Shown in pieces: positions 35,961 through 56,000 of a stretch of 64,000 bases of DNA (position 1 is the stretch's first letter; each line of letters opens with the position of its first letter). The DNA is from Bryoerythrophyllum caledonicum. Lineage: Eukaryota; Streptophyta; Bryopsida; Pottiales; Pottiaceae. The stretch covers positions 40,895,158 to 40,959,157 of the forward strand of contig OZ020514.1 in the NCBI GenBank assembly GCA_963971425.1, written 5' to 3'. A program made the translations under genes and the position numbers. The notes below the pieces were generated by a model, which saw nothing but the letters and a program-made list of their open reading frames with translations, was not told the origin of the DNA and did not search any database.

Positions 35961-36900
35961 ACAAAGCCATTTCAAAATACCTTAGCACATCCCGGAGAAT
36001 GGCTTCCCGGGCATTTTCATGACCAACAAATAGCAACCGACTTGTTTAGTTTAAACTCCGTTGAGCGTCGGAGTAGATTTCCGGTGAGTTTTTATAGTGC
36101 CCGGAAAATCACTACCCTCCGTTCTCGCAGTCCAGAGGCCATCAAAAATCCACAAGCTAAACTACCCTTAGATTTAGACAAAAGGTTGTAGTTAGTTTCC
36201 CCGGGTTTCACAATCTCCCGGAAGGCTACCCCGGGGAGGTTTTCCCGGAAAAGCCTTCCCGGTGAATAGGTCACGCAAACCCGGGTTTCCCACCACAACC
36301 ACACCTAATGAATCAAAGCAAAAATAATGTAAGAATCATAACAAGCTAGTGTCATACAAACAAAATGAGCAAGACTTCCTTCTACGGGGATTATGGAGCC
36401 TCATCCGCCGCAAGGGTAGAAACCTTAGAATACTCTAAGATAAGGCTTAACCGGCACCTCTACCGGCGTACCAAGAGTGGGGATATCACCCCTCCTCTCC
36501 TACCAATCCAAGCACTTCCCACTTAAGGAACGCTATCATTAATAGCGGTGGGTTTTCCCGGATCCCGGATCCGGTGAAAACAACCCTTCCCGGTCCCGGA
36601 CCGGTCTCTAGGGTTTGAAGTAGGTCCCGGACCTCCCTTCACCTATTCTAACTTGGATGCCCTACACCCTCCAAAAGCCTCGGGCTCACAACACACACTA
36701 GCAAGTCACAACTTCACATCACCTAGGCAAAGACACACTAGGAGGACTCACCTCTTTCTATCTTCACTTGCAACAAACTCTACAAAAGTCAAGACAACAT
36801 ATCAATGAAGACACAAAGAAAAGAAAGAAGACACAAGGATACATATAAGGACACCAAAGACATGAGCAAAGACATAAACATAAGCAAAGACGCAAAGAGG

Positions 36901-37145
36901 GAGAGTGAAGATACAAAGGAGTGTAAAGACACAAAAACACAAGCAAAGACACAAAGAGGGAATGAAGATACAAAGAAGGAGTGTAAAGACACAAAAACAC
37001 AAGCAAAGACACAAAGAGGGAATGAAGATACAAAGAAGGAGTGTAAAGACACAAAAAACACAAGCAAAGACACAAAGAGGGAATGAAGATACAAAGAAGG
37101 AGTGTAAAGACACAAAAACACAAGCAAAGACACAAAGAGGGAATG
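36901..37145. repeat. 60-bp minisatellite, four units
   Basis: Units starting near 36901, 36961, 37021 and 37082 share AATGAAGATACAAAGAAGGA and ACACAAGCAAAGACACAAAG. The third unit carries one extra base. Open frames here are repeat artefacts (Lys/Thr-rich on plus, Leu/Cys/Phe-rich on minus). Confidence 0.95.
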
Positions 37146-37540
37146 AATTAAAAGGAGCACCAAGCCCCCCTTAAGTACACCAAGGCCACTCACTAAACTA
37201 CGAAAACCTAGATCCACAAATCATGGAAAAAAGAATCTAGATCCTATAATCTAGGGTGGCCTAGTCACCGGGACACCGGGAAATCCCGGTTTCCCTTCCC
37301 GGTAACCATATCCTCAACAATAAGAGGAAAATGGAAGAATTCACTTAAGTGGCAATGACCGGGTGCACAATAGGGCCCCATCGACATCATTACTCTCACT
37401 TAGTTCAATCAACCACCTTCCAAAATCTTCCCACCAATGGTAGGAAAATTACATAACAAAACATAACATTTAACAAAAAAAACATAACGAAACATAACAT
37501 GACATAACCAGTAGCATTGAAACATAGACTTCCGGTAAGT

Positions 37541-38176
37541 CTAGTCGGAGAAATAATAAACATCCTCCTCTTCCTCCTCTAAGCATTCAAAATGCTCGTA
37601 AAGGTGAAATAGGTATGGCGTGAGGAAAACTTTCGTATTCTCACCTTCTTGAATGGCACGAATTTGAGGTGTTAACACTTCTTGAAGAAGAAGTGCCCAA
37701 TCCGGAGAGGAGACGTCGAAATAAGCTTGCACATAAGCCGTTGCCAACCTCACCGGGATTCGCTCCTTCCGGTTGGGATGGAAAATCGAGTTTAAAAATT
37801 CAATCACCCTTCTCAACCTTAAATCGATGAAGCATGAGCTATGATATCTCTCGGAGGAATCATAGCTCCGAGAGGTGTGAGAATCTAGCAATACCTTGTT
37901 ATTTCTCGGCTTCCAACCCTCCCGGTTTTCGAATGAGTAGACCTTCCTCCATTTCCTTCGAGTCCATACCCGAGGCTTGGCCCGGTAAGCTCCCCGGGAA
38001 GTCCCGGGTGATGCCAATTCTTCCACTACTCCACCTCCCGCCAACTTCCAAGGCTTCTCGTATAATCCTCCACACCCCATCCGAATGAGATCCTCTTCAA
38101 GTTGCCTTCCTTCTTCCGTCCCTTCCCGCTTGTTGGGATCCACTTTCAACAACTTGAAAGTAGCCGGTAGAGCCAT
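37541..38176 (-). CDS. intact 211-residue protein, possibly gag-like, unknown
   Basis: A clean ATG-to-stop minus-strand frame. N-terminal residues 1-60 are charged (KLLKVDPNKREGTEEGRQLE); the middle is basic, with RKWRKVYSFENREGWKPRNN; residues about 135-200 look helical and compact (VRLATAYVQAYFDVSSPDWA then LLLQEVLTPQIRAIQEG); the tail is acidic (EEEEEDVYYFSD). There is no zinc knuckle, protease or RT. Length and helical content fit a gag-like or plant-mobile-element protein, but I do not recognise the family. It is the longest undamaged single frame in the CCCGG block, which suggests a young copy. The ATG at 38176 follows CCGGGACAAC and has no better upstream alternative. Confidence 0.55.
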   Translation of the reverse strand: MALPATFKLLKVDPNKREGTEEGRQLEEDLIRMGCGGLYEKPWKLAGGGVVEELASPGTSRGAYRAKPRVWTRRKWRKVYSFENREGWKPRNNKVLLDSHTSRSYDSSERYHSSCFIDLRLRRVIEFLNSIFHPNRKERIPVRLATAYVQAYFDVSSPDWALLLQEVLTPQIRAIQEGENTKVFLTPYLFHLYEHFECLEEEEEDVYYFSD

Positions 38177-39004
38177 GTTGTCCCGGGAAATTCACCGGGA
38201 CACCTATGTCTCAAAAATGCTACTTGACTTACACAAAAACAACACTTAAGTACAACACCCCTTTTGAAGTAAAGAGGTTTCTCAAGGGTTTACCGGTGAC
38301 CACCGGGAGACCGGGACGAACTTAGAATTTGTGCAAGACAAAGTTATGCAAAATTTGCATAACTCTTCTCACAAATCCAAACAATCACAAGCTTTCTTAC
38401 AAAAGAAGAGAAACAACAATAGAAGTGAGAGTAGGAGTTTTTATGACAAACAAGGAGATTTTACAAACAAGCAATTGTACAACTAGAAGTTGCACATACA
38501 CAAAAGATGAAATTTACAAGGTGGAGGCACTTTGCTTACAAAGATTCAAGTGCCTTGGAGTTGCTTCCGCCACTCCTAGTCTCTTTGCGCTTCTCGCACT
38601 CTTACAACCTTCAAACCCCAAAAACCCTAATCTAAAATAGATTTAGGTTTTTGGGTTTTCTTCCGTCTTCTTCTTCCTTCAAGCTCCAAGCTCCACCAAG
38701 GTTTTTAAGATTCAAACCCTAACTCTAAATCTCTCAAAACTTAGTTTCCTCACTTCTAAAATTTAAAGACACAAAAGAGGAAATCCTTCCTCTTGTAATT
38801 GTGCAAGCCTCTTTACTCACAAACCCACCAATTGTATCTACCCTAGACACTCCTCGGTCTCTTACTTCCTTGCATCAAAGAGGACAAGAAAAAGGAGAGA
38901 CAACCCAAGAAGAACAACAAAAAAAAAAAAAACAAACAACCTCTCCTCCCCTTGGTGTCTTCGCGGCCCTCCTCTTCTTCCTCCTCTATTAAAATAAAAG
39001 CTAC

Positions 39005-39260
39005 TGTCCGGGCCGGGGGATAGGGTCCCGGTCCCGGTCCTTTCTTTTTTTTTTTTTTTTTGACACAAAGTCCTGTCCGGGCCGGGGGATCGGGTCCCGG
39101 TCCCGGCTGGTGGTCGGGCCGGGGGTTGTGACCCGGTCCCGGCCACCACAGGGTCGGGGTTGGGATCCCGGCCCTGAGCCATTTATTTATTTATTTATTT
39201 ATTTATATTTATTTATTTTTTAAAATTTTTTTTTTAAATTTTTTTTTTTTTTTATATTTA
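39005..39260. repeat. GC-rich duplication followed by TTTA and poly-T tracts
   Basis: CTGTCCGGGCCGGGGGATMG followed by GGTCCCGGTCCCGG occurs at about 39006-39040 and 39074-39107, with related GGGCCGGGGGTTGTGACCCG after it. Then TTTA units (39181-39222) and long T/A runs follow. Not coding. Confidence 0.85.
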
Positions 39261-39767
39261 AAAAAAATCTAATTTATTTTATTCTTTTCTAATTAAATAA
39301 AAATCTAATTCATTTACAAAACAAAACATAAAGACTAACTAACTGACTAAAAGAATTTGAAAAAAAAACTACAATTACTAATATAACTAATCTATCTTCT
39401 TACTAATCTAGTTAAATAAGGTATTAACTAATATGTGAAAACCTTAACTATAAAAATTTGATTAGAATGGTGGTTCCACATAAAGAAGTACCGGGAAGGT
39501 TTTCGGACTATCCCGGGAAAGGTTTTCCCGGCCTCCCGGGCATCTTTCATAGTGTTTCCGGGTATAGGAATTTACTAGTTTAAGACCCGGTATTATTACC
39601 ATTCTAAAACTAATTAAGAAGTTAAGCATTTTCCTATTTTACCTAATTCTTATACTAACTAATTATATGTACAATTAACTACTTTCTAACAACAATTAAT
39701 CAAAACAAATACTTTTAACTCATTTTTTTAGTGGGGCCTATAAAGTGGGAGTTTTCACACTCCCACA

Positions 39768-41050
39768 GCAATCATCCATCAGGCGGGTCATCCATCCGTG
39801 ACACTAGGCGTATTGTGCTGGGATTCATGGAGGAGCCCAAGAGCTGAGAACGGAATCAAGAAGCTACGGGCAGCATGAACAGTTTATCTAGTGGCAGCAA
39901 GGGCAAATGTGTCCGTCTCAAGTGGTACTTCATCTAAGGACTCGGCGCTCGGCGCATGGGGAGGATTTACCTGCGACATTAGCCCATTCGAGCAGGGTTT
40001 GTACCCAAGGATAGGTGGCGCAAGAAGGACAAGCGCACGCACAAGGTGCGTGGTCAACGGGGCCCCACGGGTAAAGAGCTTGGATATAAAGCCGATATAA
40101 ACTTAAAACCACAGGAGCCTCAATTGCGCTTTGTAATACCTTAAACTGTGGGTTTTGCACCCAAAACTTCAGAAGTCCCTAGAGTTGGAAGTTCAAATCT
40201 AGATTTTGCAATTTTACTTAGTTTTTGAAACTGATTGCATATTTGGATTTGTAAGAAAATTCTAAGAGTAATGGCGTAGAAATTTGTTATTCAATTTATT
40301 TTTTAATTTGGCTAGATTTCGTGATGTCTGAAAACAATCACATCTTCATGTGACGTTAAAAAAAAAGTAAGAGCAAATCTTTGGGAGTAGATTACAAGGG
40401 CATTGTTACTTGGATGTGAGTGACATTTATGCTTATAGTTAGGATTTCCGCCATTTGACCTAATTTTAGTGTTAGTTTGGCGTTTGTTGTGATTTTCTAC
40501 TAATTTATATTATTTCATTGGAGGATTAATGTTTTTAAACACCATGGTTAATCTCCACTACTCCCTTAGTTTTAGACGTTAAGGGGAAACACTTTTTAGT
40601 GCTTCTCTTTGTATTGCAGGTTTGCGACTCGGGCCATCCACTGTAGGCGTGTGCTAGTGGTTCTAACTCCTTGTCTTTTCTGCTTTTATGTTCTTGGAGG
40701 AGAGGATCCGGTTTTGATTTCTGGATATTTGTACGGTTCGTCCCTCGTATTACGCGCTTGTTGCCGGTGTTTTCTAGTGGCCCAATTTCTGGTTGTACTA
40801 GATCACAATAGGGTACCGTAGAGGTGGCCGGCAAGACCTTTCTATATGGGAGGCTGTGGTTGGACTTGTGCTAGCCGGAGGTGATGACCATTGAACCACA
40901 AAGTTTGGTGGTTTTGTAGGTGTAGTTTGCCCATTCGTACCCTTACCCTTTGGATAACCCGTAGACAGGTCTTGAGGTGGTTGTTATTTATGGTAAGTAC
41001 ACAGAGTCAGTATTACCGCGTTTTCCCTCACCAGACCACTTAGAGAGTGC
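39768..41050. other. no gene recognised; 5' side of the Ty3/gypsy element
   Basis: No supportable gene. A 5' LTR of the following Ty3/gypsy element would be expected here, but I do not find a second copy of its putative 3' LTR start (TGAGGGTGGGGTATAAGTCC). The 5' LTR is therefore lost, too diverged, or the element is truncated. Confidence 0.45.
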
Positions 41051-41417
41051 TTTCACGGTAGACTTTGGGCTAGGGTCAGATACCAACGAGGCTTTTGAGC
41101 CTGTCTAGGCGTTGGATACCGATTGTAGGCTTCGGTTCTAAGGCCTGGGCACGTTTGAGGACATGGAGGATGATCTCAGTCATGTGGTACGAGATTGGTT
41201 CTCCGGACGAGCTGGGGCATCTCCTTGCCCGATTGGCGGCTTCCATTCTAGACGTGGATGAAGGAGAAGCGCGAGAGGACGCCGCCGTTGAACAACTAGT
41301 ATGCATTCGAGTTCTTGCCCCAAGATTTGGGATTGGAGGCTCTTCAGTCATATGGTAGGTGAACCATGCCACGTTGACGTACAGTTACAACCCGTTAAGG
41401 AGTAGTGGCGCTAGCAT

Positions 41418-42307
41418 ATGGAGTTGGGGACTGCGTTCAAGGAGAGTGCGGTTGCCCAATTCTTGAATTCCCTCGAGGAGCCCAAGGTGGAAGAGGGTTT
41501 CCTCAATGAAGACTCTAGGGGCAAGGGCATTGCCGTTGTGGCCGAATGGTCTGGCTTGGGGGCCATGTCACGTTTGCCTTGGCAACATGTGCGGCATTGA
41601 TGGCGGTTGGCAATCCGCCAGCTTTTAATCCTCTGGCACAATACATGGCGCACTTGGAGGTGAAGGACAGAGGGTTCAAGCGTGATCAGATGCAACGCAT
41701 CCAGGATTTTTGCTAAGAGAAGGACGATACCCCAAGCACCATGTATACATGGCTGGCACGATTGTCAACGGAGTCAAGTGATGTGTTCACGCAACGCTAG
41801 TTGGTGAAGATCTTCATCTCCAAGCTGGATAAGCGGATGGTGGAGTTGAATAGTAAACATCTTCTTTTCCAATATCACGGGAATGCCACTTTTGCGGAAG
41901 CATTTGCAGAGGTAGAAGCGCTTGATAGAGCGATGGGCGTGAGGGAGGCCACAGATTTGGTCACAACATTGATGGATGGTCTTAAGCCTCAGAAGCTTGT
42001 CCCTGCAACCGATAGCTTGGCGGAGGCACAACCTAAAAAGATTGTGCATTGATGGGCTTGTGGGGAGGCGGGTCATACCAAGGAAGATCCCAATTGCTCC
42101 AAGAAGAAGGGGGCAGGCACCGTGAAGGCCAAGCCCAAGACCGAGGTGGCCACGACTGCAGAAAAGGCTGCAGGCAAGGGGATGAAGGCTCTGACATGTT
42201 CTTATTGTGGCAAGACTGGCCACAGTGATGAGAACTGTTTTGCTTTTCACCCAGAGAAGCGCCCAAGGTCTTTGGCTGCTGAATTGGAGGTGGTGCAGAA
42301 AGTTTAG
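41418..42307 (+). pseudogene. gag region with two zinc knuckles (Ty3/gypsy fossil)
   Basis: Helical capsid-like sequence (LVKIFISKLDKRMVELNSKH, then EAFAEVEALDRAMGVREAT) is followed by two nucleic-acid-binding knuckles. The first is about 42056-42098 (ACGEAGHTKEDPNC) and the second about 42199-42240 (CSYCGKTGHSDENC, a C-x2-C-x4-H-x4-C). Lys-rich linkers surround them. This is the usual retroelement nucleocapsid arrangement. Fossil, broken. Confidence 0.85.
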
Positions 42308-42784
42308 GCCGAAATGGCGGAGCTGAGGAAGCAAATGAGCGCGATTGCTTCTTTAGCACAAGTGGCGGACACACAACCTCCGGTGAGGGCTCAGGGCTCA
42401 TCTTTACCCCTAGATCACTATTTGTATGACGCTTCAGGGGAGGTGGTGGCTGCATTCGCCACTCGTGCTCAGACCACCGCACATGCGATGACACCTTCTC
42501 TCTCTGTACCAGGAGGTAATGGCCGTTCAGGCCACACGGGATTGCCGGATTGCACTGGTCAGTCTTGGTTGCTTCTTTCTTCAAGCATTGCAGATGCGGC
42601 AACTTCTACTAGCGCTCCAACTCCGACCCCGGTCCTACCGATTTCTTCCATTCGTGGAGATGCCACACACACCTTGGCGTATATAATGTTGGAGTTGCCG
42701 GTGTTTGCTGGTGTGGACTTTCTGACACCGAATTTTCAACCATCCGGTGTATTCCACTTGGCGGGTAGTATGTAGGAGGGCAAG

Positions 42785-43552
42785 GTGTCCATGCCATCGT
42801 TGGAGGTATTGCAGGTAGTGATGGCTCCACCCATTGAGGAGGATTTGGTAGCAATGCGGGCCAAGTTGGTGGCGGACGCCATATCCGCACTCGAGACCAG
42901 TGCCATATCCACACCTATGGAGCACTCCTCCGAGGATGAGTCTTTGGTCTCTGGAGCTACTTATTTGGCTGAAGTTGCGGCCCGGTCGGCACAAGAGCGA
43001 CATAGTGTGCGTCTTGGGGTGGTACGCTTAGTAAACGATAACGGAGTCATGGTGGTTGGTTGTTCGGACGTCAACTCCACCCGAGCTATCCCTCTCCGTG
43101 TGATGTTGGACTTCGGACCTCAGCCAAATATGATTGGCAAGCAGTTAGTCCAGGATTTGGATCTAGGTCCTTCAGAACTTGAGCCTTGCCCATTTACGAT
43201 TATTACATCAATTGGGGGCATGGAGAAGGCCATGGGCTACACCCGACATCCGTTGCAATTGATGTTTGACGTGGGATCTGGTCCTTTATTCTCTCATGCA
43301 TCTCTCCAGTGCGTTGTGATTGGCGCCACCAACTACGACATTTTGGTGGATCAGCAGGCGTTTTATTCTCTTGGATTTGGAGTGGATAACTTGACAGAGG
43401 AGGCTTGGATTAGGCCTGGGTGGTCTGCCGGTGATGGCAGAAAGGAGGTCATTCCGGTTGCCTTTGCAGCTAGCACGGTGACTTCCATGGCGGATGCAAT
43501 TCTCGGGTGCAGTGCTTTGGCATCCGATTTGCCATGTGGTTCTACGCTTTAG
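42785..43552 (+). pseudogene. retropepsin-like protease region (Ty3/gypsy fossil)
   Basis: A 255-codon segment. The second half reads IPLRVMLDFGPQPNMIGKQL, then CVVIGATNYDILVDQQAFY, matching the active-site strand and the ILG-like second half of Ty3/gypsy retropepsins. The N-terminal half is an acidic linker. It lies directly upstream of the methyltransferase domain. Confidence 0.75.
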
Positions 43553-43570
43553 GAGGAGACATATGCTTTT

Positions 43571-44580
43571 ATGTCGGGGGTAGCGGAATCACGGGATTAC
43601 AGATCAGTGGAGATCCTTGCATGTCATTGCAAGGATCCCATTCCTCCATGGGGAACTCAGTTGGAGCTTACATGCCACAGTCCGAAGATTGTGGATGCTA
43701 TTGATGCTCTACAACTTTTAGTGGACTCTTCTACTCCAATGTTGGCTCGCACGATTCAGTGGCAACCACCAAATGAGAGTATTATCCTCCTGGAGCTATT
43801 TGCCGGGATCGGTACAGGGCTCGCGGCTGTGTTAGAGACCGAGATCAAGGTACGACGGTATATCCATGTGGATAGTGGCTTTGCAACCAACCGTGCCGCT
43901 CATTGTCACATTCAACGTCTTCTAGCGTTGTATCCAGAGCAGCTACCACCTTCTGCGATTCAAGGGTGTTTTGGCAAGTTGCCACATGATGTGTCGTTGA
44001 TCAGTGAGGATGATCTTCGCCGGTTAGGTCACATGGACTTGGGGATTGCCCGATGGCCTTGCGAAGGCCATTCACGGGCGAGCAGTGGACGTTGTTTGGA
44101 TGATCCAAGGTCGGGTTTCATTACGGATTTGCTCAAGCTTATTGAGTGGTGGACTAATCACCAATCGACACCACCGGGGTACATTTTTTAGAAATCACCC
44201 CCATTGAAGGATACATGGACAAAGGTGTGTGAGGATTGTGCATACATCCATCACCTTCTTGGTCCCCCCACAATTATTAATGCCGCGGCGTTGGGCTCTT
44301 ACGCCCATCGGCTACATTGGATTTGGACCAACATTGCATCATCGACATTGCTCACCTCTGCATTTACTCAAGTACAACGGTCCGTGCGCTCTGAGCTCGA
44401 TGACATCTTGGACAACCACCGTGTTTCCACGGAGGTTTCCAAGGATGATGAGCCACCATTGGCCATAGTCAAACGGGTTTGTTTCACTCGGGGGGCATTT
44501 CCCACCTTGATGTGCTATGCGGTCTCTTTTGCCTTTAGGACACCTGGTCCGAGCATGGTTTAGGATTCTTCTTCCCAAAC
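43571..44580 (+). pseudogene. C5 cytosine DNA methyltransferase domain inside the retroelement
   Basis: The segment carries the methyltransferase landmarks in order: motif I IILLELFAGIGTGLAAVLE (SAM binding), a motif II-like acidic end HVDSGF, motif IV DLGIARWPCEGHSRASSGR with the catalytic PC dipeptide, then LDDPRSGFITDLLKLIEWW, and a motif VIII-like AALGSYAHRLHWIWTN, followed by a long C-terminal half ending FPTLMCYAVSFAFRTPGPSM. This is the fold that methylates cytosine at C5 in DNA. It sits between protease and RT in the same strand and spacing as an extra polyprotein domain, so it was captured by an ancestor of this element, not inserted by chance. Part of a broken fossil; no activity is implied. 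Confidence 0.88.
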
Positions 44581-45368
44581 TTACGAGGAGCCTTCTACCG
44601 ATGAGAGGGAGCAGGCAACGGGCTTAAGTTTCTTACATGCACCACCGCCGCACCAGATCTGTATGAAAGCTAGCGTTATTATTTGTTGGGTCAAGCCTTT
44701 GACTTCAACACCCTCGTTTCAGTTTGTGACCTCTATTTTGCTGTTCAGCGCCGTTTAAGTGATCATCTACGCGTGCTAGGGGCAAAATCTAATGATCAGG
44801 GGGCAGCGATGCGACATCTCTCAGAGATCGAGGAAGCGAAGTTGTTTTTTCGTTAAAAGAGGCATTCAACTAAAGAGCTTCGTGCTCAGCGTGTCTTTGC
44901 AGCCTTGGCGAGGACTTTGGTCGAGAGGATGCTCGGGATATCTTTGCCCGATTTTATCATCACGACAGGAGATTTTCTGTGGATCTCGTGAGTGAGGAGT
45001 CTGGGGGCATCAAAGCCCTCTCTACTACCAAGTAGCAATCATCGGCCATGCCAATACGTGGTGAGTCTTCTATTGTGGAGAAGGAAACCACGAAGTTAGA
45101 CGAATGGCCTTTGAATTTGGGGCCACATCTTATCGGTGCCGAGGCACGAAAGCTACAAGCGTTTATACGTTTGTATTATAGTTGTTTTGCCTTTAGTCTC
45201 CATGATTTGGAGGGCAAACTAATTTAGAGGCAAACCAATACGCATCCAATTGGAAGACGACCACCCCATCTTCCAACGACCGTACAAGCTCAGTCTCTCT
45301 GAGAAAGTTGGAGTTCAGACTCGTTGCCATGAGTTCTTGGCCGCTAGCTTGATTGAGCTCTCTAACGG

Positions 45369-47135
45369 TGTCCTGATGGAAATTCTTCCATCATGTACAT
45401 ACAAGTATTAGTCTTTATATGTGTGGATTTTAATAAGTAAGGAGTTGGGAAAAGGGGTTGATCGTGGTAAGAACCACGGTTTGAGGATTTGGGCGAGTGT
45501 TAGCATTTACGTGCTGCACCGCTCTTGTCACTGCTCAGGGGGGTAGGTAGCGGGTTGACTGGTATTTTTCCTGTCTCACTAGCAAGCCAAGTCGTGGGCC
45601 GCCGAACCACTCGACGGGCTCGATCGGGTTCGAACCCGGACCGGCGGCAGCCACTGACCACGACATTTCCAGCCAACCAAGTCCACGACTTGGCGATCAG
45701 GTTGTGCGAATCAACACCTTTATACGTCCGTACCATCAGCTATCTTACGATAAGTTTTATTTTATTTTTATTTCGTTATTTTTTTTTTATTTTACTTATC
45801 TTGTTGGTTGGAAGGTCTAAGTTTTTAGTCTTCCAATAAATAAAAGACTAGGGGATTTTATGTGGTTGAAAGTGGAAAGGATAAGAAAGTAATGAAGTAC
45901 CTTGTGGGGTACTTTGGGTAGGGTGACATGGGCTGGAGTGCCCACGTCCACTTGAGGTGGAAAAGTTGGAAAAGGAGATTCCTTAGGGAGGGTGTGTGTG
46001 TGTGTGTGCGGGAGAGAGAGCAAGGGTTTGGAGCAGAACTTTGACTGTATGTAGCTCGGCGAATTTTGTTCGCATGGAATTGAAAATTTTATGGTTTGTT
46101 CTTTGTCTTCAGAGATTTCTATACTCGTTTCAAAAATTGAATTCGGAGTTATGTAGCAAAAGTTATGAAGGTTTGTTTTTCTGTGAAAACCCGAGGCCAT
46201 CTATTGAGAGGCAGAGGTTTGACAAGCTATAACTTTTGCTGTAGTTCTTAGTTTTCTTTGAGATTTGGAGGATGTATGCATCTCTATCTTAGCTTTCTAG
46301 AAAGATATCACAATTGAAATTCGGAGTTGTGAGGAAGAAGTTATAGAGATCTGAATGAATAGGGGTAGGCAGAACTTTGATTGTCCATAACTTTCGGACA
46401 GTAGTTTAGATTGACTTGAAATTTGGAGGAGTGTTAGTTGTCTGAATTAGCTTTCCAGAGAGCTATTACACTTAGTATTTGAAGTTTTGAGTCATCTGTG
46501 TCACTTGTTTGAAGGTTACAGCCTTGGTGAAACTTTTCCATTGTGTTTTTGAACACTTCTTTTGAGTTTCTTAGTGTTTTTGAACACTTGAAGACTTTGG
46601 AGTTGAAGGATGGAGGAATTGAAGACTTGAGGATTGACTTGAAGAGAAGAGAAGATGGAGACAAGTGTGTTGTGGCTTGTGGTCCGATTTCTTTTTTTGT
46701 GATTCCAAGCCAGCTTTGGAGGCTAGTTGTATTTCAATTCTGTTCTTGTAAACTCTGTTGCGGCGAAGTGGGGTTAATTGCCCACACGGTCGTGTTTATG
46801 TCGTTCCCACCGGTGAGGCACGTTTGCTGGTCACCGTGGGTTTGAATTTTAGGAGCCAATCTTTCGGACGGTTTCAGCTTGTGGTTTGGCCGTCCCGTTT
46901 TACCCGTCCGAGGCCGTGGTTTCTTATCACCCACCTTTACCCTTAACCCTTTAGAGCCACCACATGATAGGCCAACGGGGAGGAGTTTGAAGACTGAAGA
47001 CTGAAGACTGAAGACTGAAGACTAGAGACCGAAGACCTGAAGATTTGAAGATACGATTGGTTTCCCAAGCAAACAATCTCCAGTCGCAGCCAGATTCCCT
47101 GCGAATTCTCAAGGCGCTCCCCTCTCTACACGACA
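45369..47135. mobile_element. solo-LTR-like insertion (TGTC...GACA) inside the RT
   Basis: The insert begins TGTCCTGATGG and ends TACACGACA, giving TGTC/GACA termini. ACGG (AACGG with one base of ambiguity) precedes it at 45364-45368 and follows it at 47135-47139, fitting a 4-5-bp target duplication. At about 1.77 kb with no coding sequence, it fits a solo LTR. It contains three imperfect repeats around 46040-46500 (TTTGRAGATTTGGAGG, AGCTTTCYAGARAG), a TG run near 45995-46010 and GAAGACT repeats at 46985-47030. The clean duplication shows the Ty3/gypsy copy was already in place when this arrived. Confidence 0.75.
45587..45704. repeat. long stem-loop with palindromic GGGTTCGAACCC
   Basis: GCCAAGTCGTGG is matched by CCACGACTTGGC about 100 bases later, and inside them GCCGCCG pairs with CGGCGGC around GGGTTCGAACCC (45626-45637). 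The centre is also a pol III B-box-like word. No convincing A box or tRNA cloverleaf was seen. Confidence 0.6.
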
Positions 47136-47831
47136 ACGGCGAGTATGCTGTGCCACGGTTATGCCATCAAAGAAAGATATCTTTGGTAACAGGATAGAGA
47201 AGCGGATGTCTAGGAATTATAGGCCGGTCAATTGCAAGACCAAGTCATACCAGTATTCCATGCTTACGGCGGAGGAGTTGTTTAATGCGGTGGGTCATTC
47301 TAGAATATTTAGTACTTTAGTTTGTGGACCCTAAACCATCAGTTACCATTGATGGTGGATGACCGGGTGAAGACTGCATTCTAGAGAGTTGGTCAGGATG
47401 GAATAGATCAACTCTATCATTGGAAGTTTCTCCCATTTGGCCTCAAGAACGCACCCGCTGAGTTTCAGAGGGTGATGGATCGGGTGTTGACCGGTTTACC
47501 GTTTGCCCGATGCTACATTGATGATGTTATCATTTTTAGTAGCAGCCGACAGGAGCATGTGAGGCATCTTCAGGCAAAATTTGAGAAGTTACGGCAGTGT
47601 GGATTGCGCTTGCACCATGGCAAGTGTAAGTTCTTCCACGACCGGTTGCGATATTTGGGACAAATGATTGTTCCACAGGGTCTTGGCATACTGCAGGCTA
47701 AGGTGGATGCATTGCAAAAGATTCATGCTCCAATCGACGTGTCACGGCTTTGAGCTTTTACTAGCTTGGCAAATTACTATCGCCGGTTTGTCAAGAACTT
47801 TAGCTTGATTGCTAAGCCATAGACTATTCTC

Positions 47832-48425
47832 ATGGGAACGGATCAATCATGGACTTGGGGACAAGAGCAGCCACAAGCATTTGCTACTTTGAAGCTGAAG
47901 CTTCGTTCAGCGCTGGTGCTGCGGTGTCCAGCTGCTACACGACGCTTCCAGTTGCACACAAGTTGGAGTGTTGTGGGATTGGGGGCAGTGTTGACTCAGA
48001 AGGATGATGAAGGATGGGAGTACATTGTGGCGTTTGCTTCTAGGAGCAACAACAACGTGGAGTCCAACTATTTTTTCTATGAGGGAGAGGCCTTGGCTAT
48101 AGTTTCGGCCATAGCTCATTTTAGGTCCTATTTGTATGGGCAACGTTTTACATTGGTGATTGACCATTAGCCTTTAAAGTCGCTCATGGAGTCTGATAAG
48201 CTTATTGGTAAGCTCGCCAAGATGGCTTTGTTGTTTCCCGGGTATGACTTTGAGGTTGTTCACCGGGCTGGCATCACGAACTTGGATGCGGATGGTCTAT
48301 CTTGCAATCCAAGTCCTTTGGAGGAGGATTTGACTGGTGCCAGGTGGCATGGAGATTGTGACAAGGAGCCAGTTCTGGGGTGGCATGCGGCGGCTTACCT
48401 CACGTCAATGTCTGGCTTTGCATAG
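47832..48425 (+). pseudogene. RNase H region (Ty3/gypsy fossil)
   Basis: FQLHTSWSVVGLGAVLTQKD, then YIVAFASRSNNNVESNYFFY with EGEALAIVSAIAHFRSYLYG and FTLVIDH, followed by LIGKLAKMALLFPGYDFEVV and ITNLDADGLS. Standard Ty3/gypsy RNase H and connection. Confidence 0.93.
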
Positions 48426-48482
48426 ACGTTGCTTGATTTGACAACGGATGAAGAATCGGATAGGATCTAAGTTGTCAGTGAT

Positions 48483-49630
48483 GTGTGGGAAGATGGTCCT
48501 CTCTTGCACAAGCTACAACATGGGACACGTCTTCTAGTTCTTTCTGCTATAGAGCGTGATAGAGTTGAGCACCAATTAGCAAGGTTTTGTAGGGAGAACG
48601 GCCTTCTATTTCGGGTGTGGCCAGATGGAACAAGGCGCACAGTTCTGAGGCCAGATGAGAGGGCTTTGTTGGTACGGCAAGTACACAAAGACCTAGGATA
48701 TTTTGGTGTGCTACGGATTCATTCAATGTTGCGTAGCCAGTATTGATGGACCGGCATGTATCAACAGGTCGCCACGTATGTTTCTAGGTGTGAAGTTTAT
48801 GATCGGGTAAGATCCAACTTCAACACCTTATCATCCCAGTTGTAGCCCTTGCCCATTATGGGGCTAGGATACCGGTGGTCTTTAGACTTTTCTTTTCCAT
48901 TTGTCGTGACTCCACGCAGAGCCAAATATGTCTTGGTGATGGTGGAGCATTTTAACAAGTGGATTGAGCTCGTGGCTCTTCCGTAGAACTTTGCATAGTT
49001 CCAAGGCCATGGCGTTCCTTACGTGTTGGCTTGTTTTGGAGCTCTAGTTGAGGTTTTGATTGACCAGGGACGTGAGTTCCTTGGGGCTTTCAAAGCTTTG
49101 CGTACTTAGGCTTTGATTGCCCATCGAACCATTTATCAGGATCACCCAAAAGCGGACGGTTTGGCAAAAAGTGTGGTTCAGACTGTGAAGCGAGGCCTAC
49201 GGAAGTATGGATTACTTCAAGGTGGCCACCGTGATTAAGATCTGATGATACCATGGATCGCTTTGGAGTACCAGTTTAGTCGGCAGGCTTCACTAGCTGC
49301 TTTCAGTCTATATTAGTTGTTGTACGGGCAGGAGCCAATTTTACCGAGTTTTGTTTGGCAAATGTTGGCTTTGGTTGTGGATTTGGATGATCCAAAGGTG
49401 TGGGCCCAATATCTACAGGATCGAGCGGAATTCTTCAAGCGGGCTATGCCCATGGCCATAGAAAACTTGTCCATCGCTCAACACTCTGACACCTTACGGT
49501 ACGCTCGTATTCATAGCGGTGCCTATCGACCTCAACTGCGACGTTTTCCACGGGTGATTACGTTTATCTGTAGCGTGAGGCACCCACAACATTGGACGTC
49601 AAGGCTAGGCGCACCATTCATCGCGTAAAA
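48483..49630 (+). pseudogene. integrase region (Ty3/gypsy fossil)
   Basis: An N-terminal zinc-binding stretch (VRQVHKDLGYFGVLRIHSML, then a C-x2-C-like SRCEVYDRV) is followed by the catalytic core (YRWSLDFSFPF, VLVMVEHFNKWIELVALP, LIDQGREFLGAFKALR) and a C-terminal part reaching the PHD finger. Order and spacing are as in Ty3/gypsy integrases. Confidence 0.9.
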
Positions 49631-49951
49631 GATGTGTTGCCCAGTGGCATCTTGTTGCTGGAAGGCAAGGATGGCCGGGAGTGTCGGGAGCACTCTAAGA
49701 ATTGTGCTACCTGCCATTTATCCATTGATGGCTTTCATCATCCGGAGTTGGCGGTTGTGCCCAACGACCTTCCATGTTTTGTGTGTGGTGAGAAGAAGGG
49801 CACAGCTACCATGTTGCTTTGTGACCATTGCCAACGTGGTTGGCATATGGCTTGCCTGACGCCACTTCTTTCTACTCTACCATTTAGGGATTGGACTTGC
49901 CTTTGTTGTCGGAGGTCTTCAAGCCACGTATTGCCCAATGAAACGGTTTAA
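49592..49951 (+). pseudogene. PHD finger at the integrase C-terminus
   Basis: An open 119-codon segment reading LPSGILLLEGKDGRECREHS (a chromo/SH3-like stretch where integrase tails often lie) and then a complete C4-H-C3 PHD finger: C-x2-C (CFVC), C-x2-C (CDHC), H-x2-C (HMAC) and C-x2-C (CLCC), including the conserved W of RDWTC. PHD fingers bind the histone H3 tail. Many plant gypsy elements carry a chromodomain here; this one carries a PHD finger instead, consistent with chromatin-guided integration. Part of a broken fossil. Confidence 0.9.
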
Positions 49952-50256
49952 ATTCCTCGTGAACTTGTCATTGTATGGTGCGTTGCCATCTTGTTGGAGT
50001 TCCTGGTTTCCATCCAGGAATAGGCAACGTTGGAGATTGACCAAGGGATTGGCAACAAATTTGCCTTAGGCGATTAATGATGGGGCTCACATTGCACCCG
50101 GCCTACCCTCTCTTTGTTACTTCTTCATATGTTTATTGATTCGGCAACGGGCGACATCTTCAACTGGATGCGTACAGTTGTTGCATCGACATCACCGTGG
50201 CATTTAGTCTTGTTAGTGTTGTATGGTCCTAGCTGGATAGAGGATCTCTTTATCCG

Positions 50257-51000
50257 CTAGGGGGGCACTTGAGGGTGGGGTATAAGTCCACTAAGCTTAC
50301 TCACTTTTGGGCAAAACAAATATACTACAGAGTATTTTTTTCTAAGAGCCCTTTGTAAGAGGTTGCGAACGTTGAGGACCGTCCATCCAACTGGATTAGG
50401 GTAATCTTGGCCGTCGATTGCGCGCTTCTACCTGACATAATTACAAACAACGGCGCATCAATCTTGACGACCAGGATGAAGCCACGTGGCTGTGACTTTA
50501 TGAAGGTGTACATGGCGCGGTTTTCAAGGGGTTCCTGGGCCGACGAGTTCTAGGCCGGCCACTTTGTGTTTTTTTCCGCACGGCTGTGGTTTGCGCTCCT
50601 CTTGGCGCCCTTGAGTTTGGGTGAAATTAACTGAGGCGATGGCCGAGGTATTGCAAAGCGAGTAGAGGCAGTGCTCGTGCGGAGCGCGATTGACGCGGGT
50701 AATTGAAGAAATCAGAGCCACAACATTCAATCACTATAGTGAATGAGAGAGCGCCAAGGTTGTTGTATGTTAGAAGACTTGTATGGAGATGAGGTGAGCA
50801 CATCTTCGTGGCGGACGAGGTGCTGGAGTGATTGAGGGTTTAGCGCTCCCGGAAAGCGGTGCTCTTGAACTGTCTGTGCGTGGAAGGTTGTCTCGGGAGG
50901 TGGGTCGGGCAACGAACCTCAACGTGTATATGAAGACCGCAGAGGCGTGGAGGTTGGATCGCAGTTGAAGGAGGAGCTCTTGATCGCAGTTCGCGCTCGG
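50257..51000 (+). repeat. purine tract and putative 3' LTR of the Ty3/gypsy element
   Basis: GCTAGGGGGGCACT is a polypurine-like tract; TGAGGGTGGGGTATAAGTCC then starts at 50270 and has the look of an LTR start. GC-rich, regulatory-looking sequence without coding frames continues to about 51000. The exact right end and target duplication were not determined because no second LTR is available for comparison. Confidence 0.5.
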
Positions 51001-51356
51001 GGTGGCGACGGCGATGTGTTCTTGGTAAGTTTGCCTGATGTTACGCGTTTTCCATTTCTCATGCTTTTTTTCCTTCTTTTGCTGTGATACACGTGGATCG
51101 AAGGATCATGTATGTAGCTAGGGGACGTGTGGGTCGTGCTTGCAAGTTTTGGGTGTGTGCTTGCAATTTCCCTCATGTGTGCTTGCAAGTACTGTTTCTA
51201 ATAGTAAGTTGCTCTCGTTTTCGGGTCTTGCTAATCAGTGTAAAATAATGTGCGCGGCTTGTTCGTTTCATTACATGTGTGTTTCGGGTGGACCTACATT
51301 GGTCGTCCATGGCTGGAAACATTTTGTGCAAGGAGCAGGTTATTCCTTGATTAGTG

Positions 51357-51815
51357 TACACCTGAACTGTAGGTGATGCAAATTTTTGTTGTGAGCGTGC
51401 AATTCGTCACGATTTCATACAAGTTTTTACAAGAGCTTACAACAGACTTCTAGCCGACCACTTCAGGGCTGCCGAGATAAAACACAGGAACACATTTGTA
51501 AGTTTTCTCTCTTTCTAGTATTTATTTTCTGCAGTTCTTCTTTTGCTTCTTCTGTAATATTTGTGTAGAGAGCGCAGCACGTACGTAAGTGCTACACGAC
51601 TTCGTGAGGTCTAGAAAGAAGTATATTTGCCAGTTCGTTTGAAGTAGCTAATACAATGATGTACACCTGAACTGTAGGTGATTTGGAAAGGATTGTCTAC
51701 GACCAATTCCTGACGATATGGTTTAGGGGTGTAGACGTGAGCTAACAACGAAACAAGTGTCGACAGCTTCAGGGCTGATTACAAAAAGCACTGAAATATA
51801 GGTAATGTGCGTTTC
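51357..51815. repeat. tandem duplication, about 305 bp, GTACACCTGAACTGTAGGTG units
   Basis: GTACACCTGAACTGTAGGTGAT occurs near 51356 and 51661, each followed about 110 bp later by CTTCAGGGCTG and an AAAACAC/AAAAGCAC stretch with a GTAA donor-like word. Non-coding; it may be the untranslated leader of the gene starting at 53082. Confidence 0.7.
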
Positions 51816-52189
51816 CATCTACAACGTCTGATTATATGATTGCTATAGTCTACTTCATTGTATGGACACACTGTCGTGGTGGTTAACATGTTTGCGGTTT
51901 AGTTGTTCAAAACTTTGTCATTGGTAAATACATCGGGTTAGAGTAATATGGAGGTTGCTGTGCATACATGGGTTGATGAGCATATCTGTGTCGATGTTCA
52001 TACATGGGTTACAGTGTATATCTAGGTGGGGTACTATACAATGGTATTGATGTATATCTGGATTCGGGGCCATACCTAGGGTTCGTGTGTATACCTCGGT
52101 TGATCCGCATACCTGGATTGGTTTTTCCAAACATTAACTGAGGTGTTTACCTAGGTAGATATCCGTATCAAACCAATGTCGCTTATCTA

Positions 52190-52620
52190 GGTTTGGGTGT
52201 CTAGTCTAGTACTTATGTATACCTTGTGTTGGGTGCATACCCATGTGGGTGCATACCTAGGTGACTGTATATGTAGGTGCATACCCATGTGGGTGCATAT
52301 GTGAATGCATACCCATGTTGGTGCATATCCATGTAGGTTCAGCATGTATCCGGGGTTGGATGCATACCCATGTGGGTGCATACCTAGGTGACTGTATACG
52401 AAGGTGCATACCCATGTGGGTGCATACCTAGGTGACTGTATACGAAGGTGCATACCCATGTGGGTGCATATGTGGGTGCATACCCAGGTGGGTTCAGCAT
52501 GTATCCGGGGTTGAGTGCATATTTATGTGGGTGCATACCTAGGTGATTGTATACGTAGGTGCATACCCATGTGGGTGCATACCTAGTAGCTAGGTGACTG
52601 TATACGTAGGTGGTGGTTCT
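52190..52620. repeat. minisatellite of GTGCATACCCATGTGG and GTGCATACCTAGGTGA words
   Basis: The two 16-bp words alternate with GACTGTATACGAAG-like spacers, and a longer period carries GTTCAGCATGTATCCGGGGT twice (about 52337 and 52493). It is rich in GTATAC and GCATAC. Open frames on the minus strand here are repeat artefacts. Confidence 0.9.
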
Positions 52621-53081
52621 TGTTGTGGCCTTATATGTGCTTCAGATTTACATGTGCGTCAATGTATACGAATAGAAAATCTCCCTTATCTGGGTTCGGG
52701 TGTCTAGTCCAGTACTTATGTATACCCGGCTTTAATCGTATATCCGGGGTTAGGTGCATACCCATATGTTTGCTAATACGTAGGTGGTGCTTCTTGCTGC
52801 GGGTTTCTATTTGCGTAGGATTTACACGTGGATCAATGTATACTACTTGGTACTCCACATTAGTTTAGTTCATATGCGTGCATTCTTGGAAAACTATGCT
52901 ACCTTTTCTGGAATTTACTATTGAGCACTGTAGTACACCGTAGTATATCGTATGAGACATTGCATATTTCTCACTGTAGTATATTATAGTCACTGCAGTA
53001 TATTTCAGTTTAAAATTAAACTATCACGTCATGTGCATGTCTGGTAGGTGCTACTGGACCTGAGTACGGTAATCATCCGGT

Positions 53082-56000
53082 ATGGGGAGGCAAGACAGAA
53101 GGAGATACCAGGGGCTTAAGAAGAAAGAGGTGGCCATCCGAAGGATTGACAACACCGATGAACGAGATGAGTCGGACACGGAGGAGGAGGCCAGGGAGGA
53201 GGAGGAGGCCAGAGAGGAGGAGGACGATAAGGTGGAGAATATCGACGACAGTAGCGATGAGAAGGGGTCTGAATTGGAGGACATTGAGCTGAAGATGGGG
53301 ATGATGCTCAGAGGCGCGCCGCCTCGTACTGTTTCATATGAGCAATTCCGAGACCAGTACAAGCTACACGCGGGTGGGTTGAACCCACACAAGCACGAGG
53401 AGAAGCATGATGTCACGGAAAATGACCTCATTGTGATTTTTGGACCGAGGCGATTGGGTAAGTCCGGTTATTCATTCAGGAAGGTCGCGGATACGGCAAT
53501 AACTAATGCAATAAACCGCTACTATTGCATTTGTTATCAGAAGCCGCGGGTGCCTCACTCAAAGCTTGTAGGGAAGGACTTTGCGGTCGCAGTTGTTGCA
53601 GAGGTGGTCAAGGGGGTTGAAGTGGACTGGGCGGGTTTTGCTACTATTACGAACACAAACCAGAGGTCTGTCTGGCACAAGAAGATGATGGGATTGGTGA
53701 AGGAAAAATCGCGCATTACTGGTAAGTCTCTTCCTGAGATTGTGCAAGAGGAGGGATTGGCGTGCTATTTCGAGGGAGGGAATTCGGTGAAGCGAGAGGG
53801 TGCCGAAGCTTCTACAGGAATGTTGGACAACAACGCCTCTCAAAGCTCTTTGTGGACGGAGAAGAAGAGGGCAGAGGTGCAAGAGCTTCTTCCGCTGGTG
53901 GGGTTGGAGACCGAGGCAGCAAAGAAGGAGCTTGAGGTGGCAAAAAAGGATCTCCACCATCTAAACCAGCAAATCGTGAGTCAAGGCCAACTAGTTGAGA
54001 CCATGGAGGCCACTGTGACCGCTGCAAGGAAGCGTATGGATGACTGCAAGAATGATGGGCAGTTGCAACACTTGCGGCTGCACAATGATTTTTATGGTGA
54101 CATGTTCAGGGAAGCAGGCGACAAGCTTGGGATCCTCAAGGCAGATTACGAATGCAAAGTTGCATTGATTGCCAGACTGGAGTGGAGAGAAGACATCTTG
54201 GAGAAGCAGGCCAAGGACTTGTTCAAGCTCGCAGGGACTTTGAAGGCTGGGCACAACGGTCTATCCGTTTCTCCGCACCCCATGGTGTACCTCGAGGAAG
54301 CAGAGGGTAAGGGATGGAACACATTGAAATGGAGGACATGCACGGTATGTGATCTTCCATTTCCTTACAATGACATCCATATATGTAGTTGTGAGCATGT
54401 GTATCACCCGTGGTGTGCGAGGCTGTGGTTTCAATCAAATTCAAAGTGTGCGTCGAAGAATTGCGGGTTGGTCCATCCAGACTGGTACAAGTCAAATGGA
54501 TACAGGGAGTTGCTGGGTGACCTTCAAGTGGAGGCTGAAACTTTGGATTGTAACTTTTCTCGGGTATTGGCAATTTCGGCACGTACACTGTCGGCCAAGA
54601 AGAACTGCACCACAGATGGTAAGTGTTTCATAATTCATTCATGGTACACTTGTGGTATCTCTTTATAAGAATGCATATTTATTGGAGAACATGTGAAATG
54701 CTACCATACATTGTGTCTTGTATGTTTAGTACTACCTCAAATGTGATTGTGTCTTCGCCTGCTCATGTAGAAGTATTGAGTTTGTATATTATGTTGTTCT
54801 TTATCCTCTGATATGCTTTCTAGTACGGGCTTAGGTGCCGGTTTTGGGTATATAGAATACCTCAAAATACTATTTGCTACTATAGACGTGTAAAGAATAT
54901 GCATGGAACGGTGTATGCTTAAGTGGAGTGTCTCTGGGTGGAGTGTATGCATGGGTATCAATTTTACCTGGGTGGTGTATACAGTTGTCAGAAGTGTTTA
55001 CATTGCATGTGGTACATACACTCGGTGGATGTTAATACCGTGGGTGGGATTCATGCATTACTGCAAGTGTGACTACCCCCCGTGGAGTATAGACATTATG
55101 TGAGTGGGTTGTATACTAGGGACCAGGTATAGGATAGGCTAGGGGTAATAGGATAGGAGTCTAGATATCTGTACAACAGTATGTACTAGTATATCTGGGT
55201 GGGTATATACATTGGTTGGAACAAGGTAGGGGTATACATCTGACTGACTGGGAAGGTGCATGTCCATGGGAGGCAGGGGTGTATTAGTTACGTAGGGTAT
55301 ATACCACTGTCACCTGTGGAAGTGTGTATCGGTTTAAGTGTATACCCTCGAGGGGTATATATCCTCAAGAAATATACACCCCTAAAAGATATATACCCTC
55401 TACGAGTGTATACTCCTAAACCGTGTATATTTAAGGGTGTATATTATGGTTGGGCAGTATAAACCGAGGCGTAGTGTACTGCACATCTGTGGATTATTTT
55501 GTATATTATGCAAATATTCTTTGGGGGTTCGCTTGAGTGACGGCCATGCATAATGGGAGGTGATTGTTCCACTGTTTTGTGCTATTCTTACTGATGTAAT
55601 TGTACGTTTGAACCTCCTATTGCAGATTCATCCCATGTGCATCACAGTCCCAATTCCACCACCACATGCACGCAAAGCGCGGGTGAGTTCAGCCAAGTGA
55701 AGGTCAGTTCTATCATAAGTGATAGTAGATATCTTGAGGCAAAGGGGGGTGGTAGGCCTCAATACATGGAAACTCGTTCTTTGAAGTTGACAGGGCAACC
55801 AGCCCTTGACAGCTGTAGGGGATCTAGTGTCCATGAGTTACGAAAGGTGAATAAGTCGTCCCCTTCGAAGATAGCTAGTGATGTAGTTCCCTCTCCAAGG
55901 AGACCTGTGGGTGGATTAGAGGTGGACGATGTCATGCTCACTCCACGGAGAGCGTTGTATGCTTTGCCAGTAGAACATTTGGTCAACACTCCAAGGAGAG

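Follow-up and report, generated by a model that had tools for sequence, protein, structure and literature searches.

Plant transposable elements are normally targets of cytosine methylation, and the locus described here raises the question whether such an element has itself acquired a methyltransferase and, if so, for what use. The window, i.e. the whole stretch of 64,000 nucleotides that was analysed, is located on a 65-Mb contig of the 437-Mb genome of the moss Bryoerythrophyllum caledonicum. A first-pass annotation had placed a DNA cytosine methyltransferase (DNMT) at 43571–44580, inside a Ty3/gypsy element, and had suggested that plants of this lineage bear an element of the kind reported from charophyte algae and dinoflagellates.

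The decayed copy in the window

The element in the window is a dead member of its family, decayed by C-to-T changes. By blastn with copies L013, L017 and L022 the homology extends over 40164–50277 on the forward strand, where all features of the element are located, and terminal repeats of this copy are not recognisable by blastn. A gag region with broken frames is found at 40969–42034 (tblastn of residues 1–355 of L017 ORF1), followed by a nucleocapsid-like region at 42035–42277, with two zinc-knuckle motifs in copy L013, and by an aspartic protease region at 43040–43534 that is 82% identical to L017. A decayed DNMT3-type C5 cytosine methyltransferase domain, mapped with L017, constitutes 43745–44718 and shows 78% and 73% identity to that copy in two frames. 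The range first annotated begins about 170 nt ahead of the domain and stops about 140 nt before its end. Motif I (ELFAGIGTG, 43793–43819) and motif IV with the catalytic PC (WPCEGHS, 44054–44074) are both present on the same strand after the protease and before the reverse transcriptase (RT), as had been annotated. An in-frame stop at motif VI (44189–44191) breaks the domain, the frames are ended by other in-frame stops at 43550–43552 and 44561–44563, and there are more frame breaks besides.

ORF1 ends with a conserved UAG followed by CAATCA (45033–45041), and the N-terminal part of ORF2 (pol) is located at 45036–45369. Comparison of the junctions with L017 places a nested insertion of 1767 bp in ORF2 at 45369–47135, ahead of RT. 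It has the ends TGTC...ACACGACA, with end letters equal to those of the host element, and is bordered by ACGG duplicates at 45365–45368 and 47136–47139; it may be the solo terminal repeat of a related element. RT follows at 47149–47723, RNase H at 47850–48266 (Pfam on L017), a DDE integrase at 48612–49223 (Pfam rve and Integrase_H2C2 on L017), and a C-terminal PHD finger at 49769–49945.

Compared with three other copies, C-to-T changes are present in the window copy at 82 of 439 CG, 69 of 336 CHG and 147 of 1591 CHH positions, and A>G/T>C changes at 62 of 2265. The excess at CG and CHG fits what is expected of a long-methylated plant element. The decayed DNMT has a dN/dS of 0.37 against L017. 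Because of this decay the profile evidence from the window frame is weak, with an E-value of 0.24 for Pfam PF00145, under the cut-off, and no relevant PDB match to the window copy by phmmer.

Short direct repeat clusters, with units of about 60 bp and about 117 bp, flank the element region at 36873–37147 and 52188–52871, and an open frame of 531 aa is located downstream of the element (53073–54668), with a RING-like zinc-binding match just under the cut-off (PF17120, E=6e-6). A tRNA scan of the whole window and an Rfam search of 38000–54000 found nothing.

The methyltransferase and its distribution in the genome

The profile match expected by the first-pass annotation is lacking in the window copy and significant in frame-intact ones. 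PF00145 matches copies L013, L070, L004 and L056 with E-values from 6.7e-11 to 5.5e-13 (L004 4.3e-11, above the cut-off), and all 39 rows of a DNMT alignment. Since frame-intact copies in the same genome match the profiles, the identity of the domain as a DNMT is certain, and a chance match of motifs is ruled out by the same copies (PF00145 and the PDB profile search). In PDB a single intact sequence matches DNMT3A (1.4e-8), HhaI (7e-5) and DRM (0.06). With the 39-row profile the best match is DNMT3A (8.8e-25), followed by DNMT3B (2e-23) and DRM (from 3e-10), with weaker matches to HhaI (4e-7) and DNMT2 (from 2e-4), and no chain named DNMT1 or CMT is found up to E=0.1. An AlphaFold2 model of the L056 domain has a mean pLDDT of 94.3 and a pTM of 0.92, and its best 50 fold matches listed from PDB are all DNMT3 entries, with E from 4.7e-20 and about 21% identity. 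The stretches in ORF1 of L013 that we take to be motifs I, IV, VI, VIII and IX/X are located at residues 942 (motif I), 1028 (GWPCQGHS), 1073 (FENV), 1115 (PRWIWTN) and 1217 (MGFLTG), an unrearranged order, unlike that of DRM. In the 39-row alignment the motif VI glutamate, E150, is the same in every row, and the catalytic residues P106 and C107 are nearly so, at 90% or more. As judged from its sequence, the domain is a DNMT3-type C5 enzyme without the DRM rearrangement.

ORF1 of L013 encodes 1353 aa with gag, two CCHC knuckles, protease and then DNMT; on L004 the protease is matched by Asp_protease_2 of Pfam (E=6e-4), under the cut-off. ORF2 of L017 encodes 1047 aa with RT, RNase H, the integrase zinc-binding domain, rve and the C-terminal PHD finger, all above the Pfam cut-off. 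The order in this first subfamily is gag-protease-DNMT-UAG-RT-RNaseH-integrase-PHD. A genome search with a 212-residue stretch of the window, in which the best 150 of 1620 first-look candidates were scored, gave at least 150 matches, all with E below 1e-90. Many of them lie in open frames, the longest of 1426 aa; many of the listed copies carry stops and not all are intact. Among the best 80 of 150 scored RT copies, 67 have one of the scored DNMT places upstream on the same strand, as the first-pass annotation predicted for other gypsy copies, and 61 of the 67 pairs are spaced by 1740–1759 bp. A host DNMT gene between element fragments is rejected by this constant spacing (61 of the 80 RT copies). 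Seven of the 13 unpaired RT copies were inspected and all seven carry at least part of a DNMT upstream, with only the C-terminal part in L065 and L066 and a deletion over motif I in L063, and sister copies lacking DNMT are likewise rejected.

Two more subfamilies carry the domain. In the second, with the order DNMT-UAG-start of ORF2, five RT copies at 82–86% identity were inspected and all have a DNMT at the same place, 44–46% identical over the end of ORF1. A query with DNMT3A gave at least 150 further places in the genome, none within 1.5 kb of the first 150. The third subfamily, with protease-DNMT-UAG-RT, was recovered with this query at 12 of 12 loci, its DNMT being 52–55% identical. The same query also found a second-subfamily copy (L070) and a DRM-type exon, and the place C3:9280883 may be of DRM type too. 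Nearly all of the at least 300 non-overlapping DNMT places probably belong to elements, of at least three subfamilies; the number would be at least 298–299 if the unfetched places resemble the inspected ones. The genome may also have a host DNMT3. In the DRM-type exon (L087, C3:13529853–13532852) a motif X-like stretch is located ahead of motif I, the rearranged order; Physcomitrium patens is described, in the part of the source consulted, as having no DRM1/DRM2 orthologues (PMC10952607). The plastid-like contig C894, probably of the host plastid, has an accD that is 96% identical to a cluster of 236 sequences bearing the name of Timmiella anomala, a Pottiaceae moss, while the second-ranking match is at 86%. 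The assembly contains two distinct rbcL sequences (L037, L039, L038; contig C821 against C894/C590), each with adjoining accD on C821 and C894, and the second rbcL-accD set is either from a contaminating bryophyte-like plant or a diverged copy.

Selection was estimated as dN/dS by NG86 against L056, a 94% identical environmental relative. The values for DNMT are 0.054 (L017) and 0.069 (L013), and for scale those for the gag part are 0.064 and for the protease 0.014 and 0.041. RT (0.025), RNase H (0.018) and integrase (0.017) are the most constrained, the DNMT values being 2–4 times higher, and the PHD finger (0.13–0.18), the linker (0.24–0.25) and the ORF1 tail (0.29–0.34) are looser. For pairs of close copies, which differ by few changes, DNMT values are 0.09 (L017/L023), 0.13 (L013/L023) and 0.26 (L013/L017). 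On these ratios the DNMT is under clear purifying selection. Overall dS is about 1 in gag and 0.3–0.7 elsewhere, and among the copies L013, L017, L023 and L056 it is about 1 in gag and 0.1–0.5 in the remainder of ORF1; this difference between gag and the rest hints at mosaic copies, perhaps formed by template switching between lineages.

Ends of the element and the stop codon between its frames

The ends were studied in 12 copies of the first subfamily, which have the order A1 (about 360 bp), internal region, B1 (about 108 bp), A2 and B2, with B2 disturbed in L023. These are split direct repeats, the 5′ end consisting of A only and the 3′ end of B-A-B. The element ends are TGTC...GACA, with an exact 4-bp target duplication in 10 of the 12 copies, one mismatch in L017 and no duplication in L020. 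The B1/A2 joint of L017 reads GACA-GC-TGTC and resembles two abutted ends. Since A1 and A2 are 97.0–99.7% identical in the 12 copies, these are young by this measure and the activity of the subfamily is recent.

A canonical element with a complete LTR at both ends is rejected, the 5′ end being without the B part, and the class "gypsy-type" therefore applies by pol only, as it did for KnitGypsy. The protease-RT-RNaseH-integrase (DDE) order of Ty3/gypsy is present, as are TG...CA ends and a target duplication in the 4–5 bp range of that group. For ORF2 Pfam lists the rve integrase and, up to E=1, no recombinase family. DIRS elements have split direct repeats, a tyrosine recombinase and no target duplication. 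The split direct repeats are common to them and the moss element, whereas the latter has an rve integrase and 4-bp duplications, and how such repeats are copied by an element with a DDE integrase that makes a 4-bp duplication is a puzzle.

DNMT and pol are separated by UAG in 38 of 39 distinct copies of the three subfamilies, and by UAG CARYYA in 37 of the 39, these copies being top-ranked and mostly well preserved. In the first subfamily UAG with CAATCA is found in all 22 distinct copies (21 genomic ones including that of the window, plus L056). All five copies of the second subfamily have the UAG, followed by CAACTA in four and CAACGA in one, and 11 of 12 in the third have CAA-UAG-CAACCA; in the remaining one, L083, the stop is absent and the two ORFs are fused after a deletion. 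The residues encoded past the UAG vary (QS, QL, QP) while the CAR-YYA consensus stays. ORF2 is in frame with ORF1 in, for example, L017 and L056, and is itself broken in some copies. RNA downstream of the UAG, compared with shuffled sequences in one copy per subfamily, folds with z-scores of -3.4, -2.9 and -1.2 for subfamilies 1, 2 and 3, that is better than the shuffles in the first two and not in the third.

CAR YYA is the plant consensus for readthrough and is essential for that of tobacco mosaic virus, as described in the part of PMC2754532 consulted. The moss element has this type I (TMV-like) context, UAG CAR YYA with the following ORF in frame. Gypsy elements with a leaky stop are no novelty, since RIRE2 of rice is cited there as a gypsy candidate for readthrough; RIRE2 shares the proposed leaky stop with the moss element, and a methyltransferase is unmentioned for it in the part consulted (PMC2754532). 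A DNMT ahead of a leaky gypsy stop was not met in the literature consulted. Since the DNMT stands at the end of the Gag-protease frame, with the conserved UAG CAR-YYA between it and pol, the predicted level of the enzyme is that of Gag.

Relatives in bryophytes, algae and dinoflagellates

Protein homologue searches listed at least 34 matches at polyprotein scale and at least 87 others, from Marchantia polymorpha, Calypogeia fissa, Closterium NIES-54 and environmental contigs with up to 91% identity. The protease precedes the DNMT in 26 of the 34 polyprotein-scale matches listed, and two show neither arrangement. Five Marchantia proteins (P0017, P0019 and P0022–P0024) and one of Calypogeia (P0063) have a DNMT 43–48% identical to that of the moss element. 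In those of Marchantia it follows the protease as in the moss, and P0019 runs on into RT and RNase H. In the records one of these proteins is called a DNA cytosine-5 enzyme and the others are hypothetical, uncharacterised or unnamed; they form a separate DNMT clade. The suggestion that a plant lineage has this kind of element holds by these named matches for the two liverworts as well as the moss. Six environmental gypsy-type polyproteins (P0025–P0028, P0030 and P0032) have the DNMT after RNase H, from either a relocation of the domain or a second capture; integrase and PHD follow in four of the six, the PHD finger being kept where the C-terminus is present. P0020 has a single open frame through DNMT and RT without a stop.

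A DNMT tree was made from 65 sequences and 259 columns, including subfamilies 1 and 2, and a protein entered it if one matched stretch within the E cut-off spanned 270 or more profile positions (57 of 121 protein matches in, 64 out). It is in effect unrooted, because the sole outgroup is a long-branched DNMT3A piece of 168 residues. In this unrooted tree the after-RNase-H clade has a support of 97 and the Marchantia and Calypogeia clade of 100. Subfamilies 1 and 2 of the moss fall into separate clades, both of which also contain environmental sequences. A search of viral contigs with a single query gave no relative and one with the DNMT alignment gave 16 generic methyltransferase loci; these and six bacterial loci are all below the score and length filter for the tree. 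L056 (CADCWO010000201.1) is a copy of the moss element binned as a Synechococcales (cyanobacterial) MAG, and an overlap of 127 bp between its ends may mean a circular molecule or repeats that collapsed in the assembly. P0039, named "DNA cytosine methyltransferase", is a 78% relative from an Obscuribacterales MAG. Both are likely plant elements contaminating bacterial bins, L056 being of likely moss origin.

The closest published case, compared by its published description, is KnitGypsy-Dnmt3 of the alga Klebsormidium nitens, for which the consulted part of the source reports gypsy-type domains, an intronless unrearranged DNMT3 under purifying selection and, in a figure legend, repeats laid out as in DIRS (PMC5890265, de Mendoza et al. 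2018). By that account the two elements share the unrearranged DNMT3, the gypsy pol, the DIRS-like repeats and the selection on DNMT. The algal DNMT is part of the Pol ORF, whereas that of the moss ends the Gag-protease ORF ahead of the conserved UAG, and the algal element has fewer copies than in Symbiodinium, whereas that of the moss is present in at least three subfamilies (PMC5890265). The pol of the moss element ends with a PHD finger, a term absent from the main text of PMC5890265. A shared history of the moss element and KnitGypsy-Dnmt3, known by description only, is likely; K. nitens is not named among the listed protein homologues of the moss DNMT. In yeast KnitGypsy-Dnmt3 gave no methylation, a result its authors call inconclusive, and SymbioDIRS-Dnmt3 methylates CG de novo, according to the same partly consulted source (PMC5890265). 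SymbioDIRS-Dnmt3 and SymbioLINE-Dnmt of dinoflagellates are also retroelement-borne, but belong to other element classes as described there, the moss element having a DDE integrase and 4-bp duplications (PMC5890265).

The PHD finger resembles by sequence those of CHD4, PHF12, KDM5, PHF21A and UHRF1, and for this reason it likely reads an H3 tail. Chromoviruses have a chromatin-reader domain, the chromodomain, at the integrase end. A reader is thus located there in both, with a PHD finger in place of the chromodomain in the moss element.

What the methyltransferase may do

The reading we favour, with a probability of roughly 0.4, is that DNMT in Gag dosage would be carried in the particle and would methylate the cDNA of the element before integration. 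Readthrough of the UAG should give a minority Gag-PR-DNMT-Pol product, so that the bulk of DNMT would come with Gag and a small share with Pol. The particle-borne enzyme might act de novo on the cDNA, at CG and possibly in other contexts, and the new copy would arrive already with 5mC of the host type before the integrase inserts it, with the PHD finger on the integrase side reading a histone tail and steering the insertion. A pre-methylated copy would likely benefit by being tolerated as ordinary silent DNA that triggers no new response; alternatively it might be shielded from an attack on unmethylated foreign DNA. This explanation is weakest on the purpose, which may be tolerance, protection or restraint. 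Many gypsy elements thrive without a DNMT, and carrying one spares old copies neither methylation nor its mutational cost, as seen from the C-to-T decay in the window. Dosage at the level of Gag is not shared by all members of the wider group, since P0020 is without the stop and six relatives have the DNMT after RNase H. Somewhat less probable, and put forward tentatively, is the wider proposal of an ancient PHD-bearing gypsy clade of algae, liverworts and mosses, in which DNMT3 would be made in Gag dosage by way of a TMV-type leaky UAG, the cDNA would be pre-methylated, and insertion by the DDE integrase would proceed from a DIRS-like split-repeat intermediate.

An unlikely alternative, though the strongest of the rivals, is that the enzyme acts as a brake by methylating integrated copies of the family and aiding host silencing, which would give a tolerable copy number and long persistence. 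The heavy decay at CG and CHG in the old window copy and the persistence of three subfamilies in one genome agree with this, and slowed retrotransposition is among the options listed in the part of PMC5890265 consulted, but host enzymes alone would account for the decay, and the near-identical A repeats of 12 copies together with the many open frames indicate a recent expansion. It is rather improbable that the domain is kept for binding of DNA or RNA in the particle, e.g. as a nucleic-acid chaperone with methyl transfer being incidental, since P106, C107 and E150 are among the most conserved residues of the 39-row alignment, even if its place in one frame with Gag and protease is where nucleic-acid binding helps. 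Slightly less probable again is an enzyme aimed at others, such as DNA viruses, competing elements or host genes that hold the element in check. An antiviral role has been proposed for transposon-borne methylases generally, but the proposal, as seen in part of the source, explains their supposed loss in land plants (PMC6338049), whereas they are abundant in this bryophyte, and the sequence points to no target beyond the element. A passenger, i.e. a fragment of a host DNMT that landed once in one copy, would suit the window copy alone, with its insignificant profile match, but is refuted by the at least 150 first-subfamily places, the three subfamilies, the liverwort matches and a dN/dS of 0.05–0.07.

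DNMT-bearing elements in mosses or liverworts are not reported in the open-access literature, including the parts consulted of PMC12344493, PMC6317226, PMC10952607 and PMC9985172, and a report in subscription papers or bioRxiv is possible. According to the part consulted of a 2019 article, transposons bearing methylases are absent from land plants, a printed claim that the moss element contradicts for bryophytes. A successful family of moss elements has a methylation writer of its own, on which purifying selection is clear, and bryophytes, Marchantia among them, are hosts in which to ask what an element gains from methylating DNA, with the predicted Gag-level dosage of DNMT through the leaky UAG as a mechanistic handle. 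If methylation of the cDNA in the particle is true, a retroelement would write its own epigenetic mark before integrating, and would flourish in the land plants, where such elements were thought to have been lost.
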